A stretch of 41,879 bases of DNA from an uncultured Actinomycetes bacterium (GTDB lineage Bacteria > Actinomycetota > Actinomycetes > S36-B12 > UBA5976), in the NCBI GenBank assembly GCA_903892635.1, contig CAITJH010000027.1, positions 1-41,879 of the forward strand, given 5' to 3'. The notes beneath the pieces were generated by a model that was not told the origin of the DNA, ran no database searches, and saw only the letters and a program-made list of their open reading frames with translations. This document shows positions 13,458 through 41,879 of this stretch, piece after piece. Numbering within the stretch: the stretch's first letter is position 1; every line of letters starts with the position of its first letter. Both the position numbers and the translations under genes were made by a program.

Positions 13458-13472
13458 TTCGCAACTCTTAGC

Positions 13473-13513
13473 CTGTGGCACTACCTGCTCAAAGGGTAGT
13501 GCCACAGTTTTTT
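13473..13513 (+). terminator. Intrinsic terminator after metK
   Basis: A perfect 13-bp stem (CTGTGGCACTACC at 13473-13485 with GGTAGTGCCACAG at 13495-13507) has a 9-base loop and is followed directly by TTTTTT. It is the clearest classical terminator in the window and separates metK from priA. Confidence 0.93.
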
Positions 13514-13560
13514 GTGGATACTTTCCTTTGGTCGCTAGCAAGTGAGAGACTGAATCCACA

Positions 13561-20700: not shown

Positions 20701-21911
20701 CAATGCTCGACCCTGTCGAAGATGCAATCGCAGCAATCAAAGCTGGCAAAGTCGTCGTCGTTGTCGATGACGAAGATCGCGAAAATGAAGGTGACCTTGT
20801 TTTTGCCGCCTCGAAGGCAACAACAGAACTTGCCGGATTCATGATCCGTTACACATCAGGAGTCATTTGCGTAGCAATGGAAGGCCCAGAGCTCGATCGG
20901 CTCGGCTTGCCGCCCATGACATACGTCAATGAAGATCGCAAAGGCACTGCATATGCTGTGAGTGTCGATGCTCGCAATGGTGTCGATACCGGTATCAGTG
21001 CCGCCGATCGCGCGCACACCATCAAAGTTTTGTGTGATTCAGCATCTGAGCCACACGATCTCACTCGTCCGGGACACGTCTTTCCACTCCGAGCCATGCC
21101 CGGTGGCGTATTGCGTCGACCAGGACACACTGAGGCGTCCGTCGACCTTGCACGGCTTGCTGGGCTAACGCCTGCAGGAGCAATTGCCGAAGTAGTTCAC
21201 GACGACGGCTCAATGATGCGTGCTCCAGCTCTGCGAGAGTTTGCTAATGAACATGGCCTAGTCATGATCTCCATTGCTGACCTCATCAAATACCGTCGAC
21301 GCAATGAATCGTTGGTCGAGCGCATTGCTACCGCAGAGATGCCAACCGAAGCAGGAGAGTTTCAGATCGTTGGCTATCGCGGTGTGCTTGATGGCATAGA
21401 TCACGTGGCGTTAGTTATGGGCGACATCGGTGATGGCCATGATGTTTTGGTCCGTGTGCATTCCGAATGTCTGACTGGCGATGCACTCGGGTCGCTTCGC
21501 TGTGACTGTGGTCCACAACTTCGCGCGTCAATGCGAAAAGTTGCTGACGAAGGTCGCGGAATTGTGTTGTACATGCGCGGTCACGAAGGTCGGGGCATTG
21601 GCTTGCTTCATAAGTTGCGCGCTTACGAACTTCAAGATCAAGGCGCCGACACCGTCGAAGCCAATGTGGCGCTGGGTTTTGCTCCAGATGCCCGTGACTA
21701 TGGAACTGGTGCACAAATTTTGGTCAACCTTGGTGTGAAGTCAATGCGGCTGCTCACGAACAATCCCACAAAGCGTGCCGGTCTTGATGGTTACGGTTTA
21801 ACGATTACTGATCGTGTTCCAATTGAAATTGAGCCAAACGATTACAACTTGTCGTACATGGAAACGAAGCGTGACTCAATGGGCCACGAACTAACATTCG
21901 GAGGCAAGTAA
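20697..21911 (+). CDS. ribBA: Bifunctional DHBP synthase / GTP cyclohydrolase II
   Basis: This 404-residue fusion provides both entry points to riboflavin. The N-terminal domain (about 1-200) makes dihydroxybutanone phosphate from ribulose 5-phosphate, with the metal-binding [10 protein letters not shown] motif near residues 22-31. The C-terminal GTP cyclohydrolase II domain has three zinc cysteines in [15 protein letters not shown] (about 256-270) and the [13 protein letters not shown] segment. Both active sites look intact. It overlaps ribE by four bases and ribH by one. Confidence 0.96.
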
Positions 21912-22387
21912 TGAGTGGCCACGGTAGTCCGGGATCGGACGTTGCAGGGTTTTCTGGCAAACGCGTTGTAATCGTCGCTTCCTCGTGGCACACGACTGTC
22001 ATGGACGGTTTGATTGAGGGAGCAACACGTGTCATTTCTGATGCCGGAATAACACCAGAACTTCATCGTGTTCCGGGAACTTTCGAACTGTCGATTGCCG
22101 CTCGCGAAGCCGCACTGTCAGGTGCTGACGCTGTCGTTGCACTAGGTGTAGTCATTCGCGGTGGAACACCGCACTTCGATTTTGTGTGCAACGCGGCAAC
22201 AGACGGACTCAATCGAGTCGCTCTCGACACTGGCGTGCCAGTTGGTTTCGGCGTACTCACATGCGATGACGAAAAGCAAGCACTCGATCGCGCTGGACTG
22301 CCGAACAGCATTGAAGACAAAGGTGCCGAAGCTGCATCCGCCGCACTGAATACATGGGTCGTTCTTCGCAATATTCGTAGTTCCTAG
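21911..22387 (+). CDS. ribH: 6,7-dimethyl-8-ribityllumazine synthase
   Basis: RibH condenses dihydroxybutanone phosphate with the RibD product to make the RibE substrate, usually as a pentamer or 60-subunit capsid. The 158-residue protein has ALGVVIRGGTPHFDFVC near 77-93, which carries the phosphate-binding Arg and catalytic His region, and PVGFGVLT near 110-117. It is the last gene of the rib operon. A small AGACT/AGTCT hairpin at 22386-22400 follows, without a proper T-run. Termination may instead involve the structured repeats just downstream. Confidence 0.95.
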   Translation: MSGHGSPGSDVAGFSGKRVVIVASSWHTTVMDGLIEGATRVISDAGITPELHRVPGTFELSIAAREAALSGADAVVALGVVIRGGTPHFDFVCNAATDGLNRVALDTGVPVGFGVLTCDDEKQALDRAGLPNSIEDKGAEAASAALNTWVVLRNIRSS

Positions 22388-22420
22388 ACTTACGCAGTCT
22401 GCACAATTTTCGACGGCAGA

Positions 22421-22500
22421 GATGAAGAGTAAGCAGAACCTCTAAAAAGGCCCGTGTGCCACAATTTGTGGGCACTCGGGCCGTGTTCTGCGGCTCTTGC
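22421..22500 (-). repeat. 80-nt structured repeat, copy A (minus orientation)
   Basis: Copy A belongs to a four-member family that aligns without gaps over exactly 80 bases. Read on the minus strand it has three nested stems. Stem 1 is AAGA/TCTT (unit positions 3-6 with 73-76). Stem 2 is GCAGAAC/GTTCTGC (10-16 with 62-68; + strand 22433-22439 and 22485-22491). Stem 3 is a long hairpin GGCCCG/CGGGCC starting at 19 with 52 and extended inward by GTGCC/GGCAC. TTTTTAGA lies at 53-60. Its stem 1 and stem 2 differ from the other copies by compensatory changes. It points against all nearby genes. The rest of the 338-base gap 22388-22725 holds copy B, the hisE -10 box and nothing else recognisable. 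Confidence 0.88.
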
Positions 22501-22553
22501 ATCTCGGTCGTCGAATTGATCCAAGCCAAGGTCCACGGCGAACGTCCCCTGGC

Positions 22554-22633
22554 GCAAATGCCGCCGAACACGCGCGATGCGCAAATAAATTTTCGCGCAT
22601 CTTGCTTTTTAGAGGTTCGGCTCACATTTCGCC
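22554..22633 (+). repeat. 80-nt structured repeat, copy B (plus orientation)
   Basis: Copy B lies 53 bases after copy A in the opposite orientation, so their GCAAA ends face each other. Stem 1 is AAAT/ATTT, stem 2 is GCCGAAC/GTTCGGC (22563-22569 and 22615-22621), and stem 3 is GATGCGC/GCGCATC (22576-22582 and 22595-22601), reached through G19-C52 and C20-G51. The T-run is 22606-22610. By direct count it matches copy D at 68 of 80 positions. Its hairpin plus T-run is downstream of ribH and could also end rib transcription. Confidence 0.88.
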
Positions 22634-22713
22634 AGCGTCCGTTCTTCGAAGTGCTTTCGCCCTCGAACAGCAACGCATACGAGGTGTCGAAAATGGGCAT
22701 GCCTGAGAGCAAG

Positions 22714-22725: not shown

Positions 22726-22989
22726 ATGAAAACTTTCGACGAGCTGTTTGCTGAACTGTCAAGCAAAGTAGCTGCCGGCGCCACAGATTCGGGCACCGTG
22801 CAGGCTATTAATGCTGGCGTTCATCATGTGGGCAAGAAAGTTGTCGAAGAAGCAGCAGAGGCATGGATGGCTGCCGAACACGAATCCAAAGAGCGTGCTG
22901 CCGAAGAGATCTCACAGTTGTTGTACTGGACCCAGGCATTGATGCTCGCTGCTGATGTGTCTCTCGACGATGTGTACGGAGCGCTTTAG
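22726..22989 (+). CDS. hisE: Phosphoribosyl-ATP pyrophosphatase
   Basis: HisE carries out the second step of histidine synthesis, hydrolysing phosphoribosyl-ATP to phosphoribosyl-AMP. The 87-residue all-helical protein has the MazG-like metal-binding signature [16 protein letters not shown] near 38-53 and the EEISQLLYW helix near 60-68. It is a stand-alone HisE, not fused to HisI, as is usual in Actinobacteria. hisG follows after two bases, so the first two steps of the pathway are encoded together. The remaining his genes are outside the window. Confidence 0.94.
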
Positions 22990-24517: not shown

Positions 24518-24556
24518 TTCGCGAATCAGGCCAAAACGGCTGGGGGCGAGACAACG

Positions 24557-24636
24557 GGAGAAATGTTAGCCGAACCTCTAAAAAGGCGATTGAGTCATAC
24601 TTTGTGGGCTTAATCGCCGCGTTCGGCGGCGTTTGC
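24557..24636 (-). repeat. 80-nt structured repeat, copy C (minus orientation)
   Basis: Copy C lies in the gap between the SseB-like gene and infC, 25 bases before the infC -35 box, and points against both genes. Read on the minus strand, stem 2 is GCCGAAC/GTTCGGC (24569-24575 and 24621-24627 on the + strand) and stem 3 is GGCGATT/AATCGCC (24585-24591 and 24612-24618). The T-run directly abuts the stem (AAAAA on +). Stem 1 pairs at three of four positions. Its apical loop shares GCCCACAAA with copy A. The remaining bases 24518-24556 show nothing recognisable. Confidence 0.88.
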
Positions 24637-24661
24637 TACCGCGCCAAGCCAAATGCGGATT

Positions 24662-24691
24662 TTGAGTGTTGGCACAGTTCTGGGCTAAAGT
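24662..24691 (+). promoter_or_regulatory. Candidate promoter of the infC-rpmI-rplT operon
   Basis: TTGAGT at 24662-24667 and TAAAGT at 24686-24691 are separated by 18 bases, a good match to the housekeeping sigma consensus. Transcription would start near 24698 and give a leader of about 150 bases. Confidence 0.6.
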
Positions 24692-24697
24692 AGGGGA

Positions 24698-24850
24698 ACG
24701 GTCCTTCTCAGGACCAGACAAGTGGACAGCGTCCCACCCGCATCGCCTGCTCTTAAGGGCGTCGGGTCGAGAAAGCCAGATCAGTCTGGCATGCGCAGTG
24801 ATGCGCGCTTCTTGGGTTGCTGCCTGCAAAGTACGACCACAGGAGGACCT
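24698..24850 (+). promoter_or_regulatory. Structured 5' leader of infC-rpmI-rplT
   Basis: The predicted leader contains a series of hairpins. They are GGTCCT/AGGACC (24700-24715), CCCG-CGCC paired with GGCG-CGGG (24737-24766), GCCAGA/TCTGGC with a TCAG loop (24775-24790), and TGCGCA/TGCGCG with a GTGA tetraloop (24792-24807). It ends in a strong AGGAGG ribosome binding site at 24841-24846. In other bacteria L20 or IF3 feeds back on this operon, and this leader may serve the same purpose. I cannot assign it to a named RNA family. Confidence 0.55.
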
Positions 24851-26910: not shown

Positions 26911-26953
26911 TTAGGTCGTTCGTAAATCTCGAATTGCCTTGCCGGTCTGGGGT

Positions 26954-27033
26954 GCAAACGCCGCCGAACCCGTTCGATGAGCAAATGAATTTTCGCTCAT
27001 CTCACTTTTTAGATGTTCGGCTCACGTTTCACC
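26954..27033 (+). repeat. 80-nt structured repeat, copy D (plus orientation)
   Basis: Copy D is the closest relative of copy B, with identical geometry. Stem 1 is AAAC/GTTT, stem 2 is GCCGAAC/GTTCGGC (26963-26969 and 27015-27021), and stem 3 is GATGAGC/GCTCATC (26976-26982 and 26995-27001). The T-run is 27006-27010. Compared with B, changes at unit positions 6 and 73, 20 and 51, and 27 and 44 all preserve pairing. It lies downstream of the rlmB-like gene and could end that operon. The remaining bases 26911-26953 and 27034-27136 hold no other feature except a TAGTGT hexamer at 27100-27105 that might be a -10 box. Confidence 0.88.
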
Positions 27034-27136
27034 CTCAGCCCGCCCCAGGACAGCTCGAAACGTACTCGGCGAGTGCGCGCGATGTTATGGCGCTGCAGGT
27101 AGTGTGAAAGTAATCGTTGGTATGAGGAGCAATACG

Positions 27137-41585: not shown

Positions 41586-41879
41586 TTAACGGAGAGTTTG
41601 ATCCTGGCTCAGGACGAACGCTGGCGGCGTGCTTAACACATGCAAGTCGAACGATGAAGCGGAGCTTGCTCCGTGGATTAGTGGCGAACGGGTGAGTAAC
41701 ACGTGGGCAACCTGCCCCTAACTCTGGGATAACTCCTCGAAAGAGGTGCTAATACCGGATACGAAACTGGGAGACATCTTCACAGTTTGGAAAGTTTTTC
41801 GGTTAGGGATGGGCCCGCGGCCTATCAGCTTGTTGGTGAGGTAACGGCTCACCAAGGCGACGACGGGTAACCGGCCTGA
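41586..41879 (+). rRNA. rrs: 16S ribosomal RNA, 5' part (truncated by the window end)
   Basis: The universal 27F site AGAGTTTGATCCTGGCTCAG starts at 41593, so the mature 5' end lies near 41586 by comparison with E. coli. Conserved blocks follow in order: GACGAACGCTGGCGGCGTGC, ACACATGCAAGTCGAACG, GTGGCGAACGGGTGAGTAAC, and the segment near 41820 with CTATCAGCTTGTTGGTGAGG. Only about the first 294 bases are present. The rest of the rRNA operon would lie beyond the window. Confidence 0.97.

Follow-up and report, generated by a model that had tools for sequence, protein, structure and literature searches.

Two similar hairpin sequences lie in opposite orientation in a single intergenic gap, between the genes for lumazine synthase (ribH) and phosphoribosyl-ATP pyrophosphohydrolase (hisE), on a contig of an uncultured Actinomycetes bacterium, and this locus raises the question of what such a pair is and how it came to lie there. 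An earlier note, made from the letters of the window (by which we mean the whole 41,879-nt stretch of DNA that was analysed), had described the two copies, A and B, as lying head to head, had argued that use as a gene terminator would not explain copy A, and had likened the pair to the BIME arrangements of REP sequences. Having followed the hairpin through related genomes, we read A and B as being, on balance, probably copies of a miniature mobile element that is non-coding and non-autonomous and that is functional as a long imperfect hairpin. The hairpin family is best read as being of the REP/RPE/MITE kind without consisting of true REPs.

Copies and genomes analysed

The analysis covered 41 copies, 23 of them from the family of the host and 18 from a second actinobacterial order, that of genome G272; G000 denotes the window's own genome. 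One sequence present at two contig ends (G016:C31:8820 and G016:C28:12100) was counted once, giving 23 host-family copies and not 24. In the second-order set, the 51-nt match L137 (E 0.009) was excluded and L133:1643 was included.

Table 1. Positions of the hairpin copies A to D and of the features around the ribH-hisE gap, in window coordinates
Feature	Position	Strand	Remarks
ribH (lumazine synthase)	21911..22387	+	gene 5′ of the gap; PF00885
Copy A with basal arms	22406..22518	.	TCGACG 22410-22415 / CGTCGA 22509-22514; 0.4% of swapped arms reach the own-arm score
Copy A, 85-nt hairpin core	22420..22504	-	5′ end = 22504
Bulge of copy A, TTTTTAGAG	22440..22448	-	conserved, one-sided
A-B spacer	22505..22549		45 nt; no conservation with the spacers of other pairs
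Copy B with weak basal arms	22540..22644	.	GAACG / CGTTC; 9.9% of swapped arms reach the own-arm score
Copy B, 85-nt hairpin core	22550..22634	+	alignable core
Bulge of copy B, TTTTTAGAG	22606..22614	+	conserved
hisE (phosphoribosyl-ATP pyrophosphohydrolase)	22726..22989	+	gene 3′ of the gap; PF01503
Copy C	24556..24640	-	3′ of SseB-domain gene; at this site in G022 the copy lies on the plus strand
Copy D	26950..27034	+	3′ of SpoU methylase gene

Two copies between ribH and hisE

Copies A and B are real and opposite in orientation, with their GCAAR ends facing each other and their T-runs pointing outward, as had been described, and both fall within a ribH-hisE gap of 342 nt (Table 1). The distance of 53 bases given in the earlier note did not hold, as the 85-nt cores are 45 nt apart; the two figures differ because the ends of the copies were set differently. 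Both neighboring genes were placed on the plus strand by their Pfam domains, and the minus-strand open reading frames there overlap ribH or hisE, which leaves copy A with no minus-strand gene that it could serve; a simple terminator role fails to explain it, just as the note had argued. The two copies also differ in loop subtype (identity was 82% between B and D, 70% between A and C, and 65% between A and D), and simple inverted duplication does not describe the pair.

Fold and covariation

The window holds two further copies, C and D, and G000 has six in total, the remaining two lying one each on contigs C17 and C8. No gap is needed to align the four window copies across 85 nt, and their hairpin has a core of that length with 28 bp and a conserved 9-nt bulge, TTTTTAGAG. 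Helix 1 comprises 10 bp including a bulged base and is followed by a small internal loop; helix 2 comprises 7 bp, mostly GCCGAAC/GTTCGGC; the bulge, which is one-sided and faces two bases, lies between helices 2 and 3; and helix 3 comprises 11 bp capped by a loop of ~12 nt.

Across the four window copies, 92.9% of the cells of the 28-bp hairpin were paired and 12 pairs were doubly changed, compared with 76.3% and 5.4 in shuffles of the same copies, none of 500 of which matched the real alignment; slid structures also scored far lower. Changes on both sides of a pair, seen at 12 of the 28 pairs among the window copies, were seen at 21 of 28 among the 23 distinct rows of an alignment that was itself fitted to the structure. 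Folding-energy z scores relative to dinucleotide shuffles were -6.5 for A, -3.6 for B, and -4.6 for D, with copy C being unremarkable on its own (-0.4). A model built from the four window copies found 17 more matches in seven other genomes (E 5e-20 to 1e-7), and the likeness among copies is therefore not a product of chance.

Distribution across genomes

With the refined four-copy model, the hairpin was present in 8 of 43 host-family genomes, and an order-wide search of 166 genomes returned the same eight carriers. Within the host genus, the hairpin was missing from 16 of the 22 other genomes. A class-wide search, in which only the best 11 candidates per genome were scored, was positive in 5 of 394 genomes, four of them from the host family and the fifth being G272 (E 2.7e-9), in whose order 7 of 22 genomes carry the family. 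Copies in this second order follow the same plan, with the bulge CTCTTTAGAC in many of them, long arms, and a conserved apical loop (GTGGC-GGNGAAGCRT-GCCAC). Copy number per carrier genome ranged from 1 to 7. The named carriers of the first group are metagenome-assembled genomes (MAGs) of Actinobacteria or Candidatus Nanopelagicales, which from their record names and what is known of the order we take to be freshwater organisms; the host is likewise an actinobacterium of the Nanopelagicales type.

A pattern scan of genome contigs yielded 16 stretches, seven of which had model matches and all seven of which came from Actinobacteria or Nanopelagicales MAGs; the other nine (Fructobacillus, Chloroflexi, and others) had no model match and were dropped. 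Neither the structured pattern nor the apical-loop pattern was found in viral contigs, and a bare 17-base pattern occurred in three viral contigs, none of which the model confirmed. Plasmids and phages gave no match to one copy from the order of G272 at E 0.01, and searched with another copy at E 10 they gave partial matches only, the best having an E of 0.1 among the 10 of 15 records listed; these partial matches were not counted. No Rfam family matched the hairpin at E up to 5, or up to 0.5 in another search, and searches of the open-access PMC literature listed no publication on the family. At its end, the window contains the start of a 16S rRNA gene (41586-41879, Rfam RF00177).

Empty sites, filled sites, and inversion in place

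The ribH-hisE gap of relatives had been proposed as a check in the earlier note. Both genes were found in 17 genus genomes, and in 14 of these the gap lacked both copies. In those 14 genomes ribH and hisE lie 13-20 nt apart, and in G000, G022, and G007, each with two copies, they lie 340-351 nt apart. A second site, between metK and priA, is filled in 4 of 20 genomes (once in G001, G013, and G014, twice in G016) and is without a copy in the other 16, the window included. In G013, G014, and G016 the copy sits 3′ of an intact metK terminator. The window's own metK has a classic intrinsic terminator at 13461-13515 (CTGTGGCACTACC...GGTAGTGCCACAG-TTTTTT). In the second order, a copy (L158, G373:C1, 5732-5817) lies directly 3′ of metK, as in the four host-genus genomes.

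Several filled sites could be compared between G000 and G022. At the AcnX-RbpA site, the cores are identical at 81 of 85 positions (95%) and opposite in orientation, within collinear flanks of 73-80% identity; at the SseB-infC site, the copies are again opposite, with 84% identity over 77 nt, and the flanks are collinear and 84% identical; and the copy 3′ of methylmalonyl-CoA mutase has the same orientation in both genomes. Read along the ribH-hisE gap, the window has A(-) followed by B(+), G022 has a D-type(+) followed by an A-type(-) copy, and G007 has an A-type(+) followed by a D-type(-) copy. Between G022 and G007 the whole pair with its spacer, aligned over 215 nt, is inverted relative to the genes, and the second copy of these two genomes is 88-89% identical to D versus 84% to B. 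As read from these aligned sequences, related species differ by inversion of the hairpin in place, seen at two sites, and by a reordering of the A/B pair.

Since G000 and G022 share sites, the copies there look inherited and not newly moved, and the excess of core identity (95%) over flank identity (73-80%) would also fit a selected host function. Two G022 copies from different sites are 95% identical. Conservation between G000 and G022 is strong in the sequence 5′ of infC (window 24665-24720, GGGCTAAAGTAGGGGAACGGTCCTT...), likely an infC leader or promoter.

Pairing of copies

The likeness to BIMEs had been tied to the expectation that copies elsewhere would also occur as inverted pairs with a fixed spacing, and this stood in part. 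Opposite pairs do recur, ten of the 41 copies forming five inverted pairs (ribH-hisE in G000, G022, and G007; metK-priA in G016; L133 in G373), three of which are orthologous, with a core spacing of 38-57 nt; but 27 copies are single, four form two direct tandem pairs, and polarity varies, with the window pair alone having its 5′ ends facing and the other four having their 3′ ends facing. An inverted unit of fixed spacing was rejected on the counts of single copies and direct pairs. REP dimers may be head-head, tail-tail, or head-tail and lie mostly 20-100 bp apart (Bertels & Rainey 2011, PMC3116915; PMC3733652). Unlike in REP/BIME families, opposite-orientation dimers are not the predominant unit among the 41 copies.

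Arms beyond the core and the probable folding strand

Pairing beyond the core is confined to the two flanks of a given copy and does not extend between copies. The own-arm score was 155.5 in the host family, compared with 36.6 ± 9.1 after permutation, and 174.5 in the second order, compared with 50.3 ± 10.6, and none of 20,000 permutations reached the observed score in either set. Arm pairing is clear in A, D, and most other copies and weak in B and C. The arms are inverted repeats that differ at every site, as in four copies of G272 with core identity of 88-97% and arm identity of 47-65%; the core therefore does not mark where the mobile unit ends. Neither an autonomous parent element nor a clear target duplication was found for the family. 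An origin of the arms as terminators whose loop was invaded, which fits G029 by eye, was rejected because the metK-priA copies sit after the metK terminator and not inside it, and because the ribH-hisE junction of relatives is without a terminator.

The helices carry a mismatch bias. Isolated helix mismatches read on the T-bulge strand numbered 31 A.C and 1 G.T (p 1.5e-8), a value that treats related copies as independent; the safer test, on 12 + 15 copies with one copy per site, the apex excluded, and coding copies left out, gave 20 A.C versus 5 G.T (p 0.004). In the paired columns of the model alignment, 613 Watson-Crick cells stand beside 12 A.C and 4 G.T, wobbles being rare on both strands. 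A further tally (host family, 30 A.C and 3 G.T; second order, 18 A.C and 6 G.T) was discarded, as unpaired loop columns had distorted the counts. An A.C mismatch on the T-bulge strand is a G.U or G.T wobble on the complement, and the complement therefore seems to be the strand in which the fold is kept, that is, the folding one.

Neighboring genes and intragenic copies

The genes 5′ of copies in the host family are ribH, SseB, SpoU, AcnX, and methylmalonyl-CoA mutase, and further metK, aldehyde dehydrogenase, aconitase, and dnaE, all of them housekeeping genes; in the second order they are metK, a SpoIIE-domain gene, solute-binding proteins, and a CobT-like gene. Most copies sit shortly 3′ of a stop codon, many at ~16-130 nt, and they occur in both orientations relative to the 5′ gene. 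The sites occupied differ from clade to clade. Copies L131 and L157 sit between convergent genes, and one copy of G272 adjoins divergent genes. A direct tandem (L149, G373:C12, 6376-6562) with a 101-nt period and near-identical units separates two genes read as divergent.

An ABC-transporter gene of G250 contains, in frame, two copies in direct tandem that keep the frame open. The first spans codons 340-367 and the second codons 378-405 of 659, between the membrane and ATPase domains; these copies are hard to reconcile with a terminator role. The tandem (L150, G250:C66, 3997-4194) lengthens the transporter linker by 66 codons, and the host gene is CydD-like, judged by its neighbor (cytochrome bd subunit II).

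Two copies on separate contigs of G007, L046 (G007:C159, 6487-6569) and L047 (G007:C209, 2903-2985), are 99% identical and have short flanks in common, the former adjoining methylmalonyl-CoA mutase and the latter a PLP-decarboxylase gene. These two genes are adjacent in G000 and G022, with a single copy between them. The G007 arrangement resembles an insertion of ~9 kb (a giant RCC1-repeat protein and an ABC transporter) between direct copies on contigs that are unjoined.

Interpretation and alternatives

From the empty sites, the patchy spread, the intragenic copies, and the likeness of copies within a genome, we infer that the family is probably mobile, and from the mismatch bias that recognition may be of a single strand in its folded form. 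The element would have entered the ribH-hisE junction as, or beside, another copy, splitting the 13-20 nt between the genes. The folded strand would be the complement of the T-bulge strand, probably single-stranded DNA exposed in replication, and a putative enzyme acting in trans would recognise it; the flips in place and the reordering may have arisen when the paired arms recombined or the template was switched between them. No transposition event was seen. The Y1_Tnp domain of RAYT (PF01797) was found in none of the 43 host-family genomes and in 5 of 14 control genomes, and this absence of Y1 transposases counts against mobility. Tyrosine recombinases (1-5 per genome, mostly 1-3) do not distinguish carriers from non-carriers. 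A more far-reaching proposal, which we hold to be quite unlikely, is that, in two or more actinobacterial orders, a mobile, single-strand-folding core gains or makes paired arms at each new site, for example by duplicating a flank through fold-back copying, flips in place, and is moved by an enzyme class new to palindromic repeats.

Alternatively, the complement strand (5′-...CUCUAAAAAG...) could be transcribed into a structured RNA, folding as a regulatory or small RNA under host selection, which would account for the strong covariation, the tolerance of G.U-type mismatches on one strand only, and the conservation of the core above the flanking DNA. We consider this unlikely, given that no conserved sequence that might be a common promoter lies outside the core, that orientation to neighbors is mixed and flips between species, that Rfam holds no match, and that 16 of the 22 other genus genomes do without the hairpin.

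Intrinsic terminators have a stable hairpin right after the stop codon and a T-run after the stem, and the copies might likewise be terminators or 3′-end stabilisers of mRNA, ending or shielding transcripts that arrive from either side. Agreeing with this are the many copies at ~16-130 nt after a stop codon, those between convergent genes (L131 and L157), and the T-run after the inner helix in the plus orientation. The copies are not arranged as hairpins oriented with a T-run for the 5′ gene, however, as orientation is mixed and is flipped between species, and the minus orientation is without a T-run. The wobble bias also points to the strand opposite to the T-run strand, copies sit 3′ of an intact metK terminator, some are intragenic or flanked by genes read as divergent, and the conserved bulge and apical loop would be unnecessary for termination, all of which make this distinctly improbable.

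Integron-like attC sites, that is, tyrosine-recombinase sites folded from a single strand with genes captured between direct copies, would be consistent with the strand-biased hairpin and its asymmetric unpaired spacer, and with the 99% identical direct copies of G007, which stand at two contig ends facing the mutase/decarboxylase site as if ~9 kb had been inserted. An attC identity is nonetheless very improbable: no integron integrase was evident (G000 has two phage-integrase-family genes), the 7-bp helix 2 varies in sequence across genera and is not conserved as the attC boxes RYYYAAC/GTTRRRY (it is GGCGCGC in G029), the arms extend past the helix, and the neighbors are housekeeping genes in conserved order. 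That the copies are true REP/BIME elements moved by a RAYT transposase is hardly credible, for although they are palindromes that occur in opposite pairs of different subtype and at 3′ ends of genes, Y1_Tnp was absent from the host family and present in controls, the ends of the 85-nt cores bear no GTAG/CGTC tag, and the units measure 85-150 nt versus 20-40 nt at 1-7 copies per genome.

Palindromic mobile repeats are best known from RAYT-carrying genomes. A hairpin family that has arms specific to each site, folds with a strand bias, and inverts in place, in small-genome freshwater actinobacteria devoid of Y1 transposases, would indicate another route by which such repeats spread or are kept up. 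The copies would also serve as natural markers of inversion between close species.

Comparison with known systems

Like intrinsic terminators, the copies lie after stop codons and have, in one orientation, a T-run after the inner stem; they differ in their mixed orientation, in their conserved bulge and loop, and in being placed after existing terminators and within a gene. With attC sites, as portrayed in PMC2727003, they share an imperfect hairpin, possibly its recognition on one strand, unpaired bases that mark the strand, and a variable terminal structure; they differ from attC in having no R boxes at the base, no evident integron integrase, arms beyond the core, and no tie to cassettes.

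The likeness to REP, REPIN, and BIME sequences lies in being small extragenic palindromes in either orientation and in forming heterodimers of differing loop type, with units inside larger palindromes and some copies intragenic (PMC3116915; PMC3733652). Unlike REPs, the family has an 85-nt core reaching ~150 nt with its arms (versus 20-40 nt), occurs at 1-7 mostly single copies, and combines a one-sided 9-nt bulge and locus-specific arms with the lack of a tag and of RAYT in the host family.

Rickettsia palindromic elements (RPE), palindromic sequences of ~150 bp that are patchy in occurrence and can lie in frame within protein genes (PMC10969869), are similar in these respects, with in-frame insertion seen here in one gene only, as the two tandem copies of G250. 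Set against RPE by description only, the present family differs in its actinobacterial host, its mostly intergenic position, and its conserved core within non-conserved arms. In being non-coding, small, and dispersed, with empty sites in relatives, the hairpins resemble MITEs.
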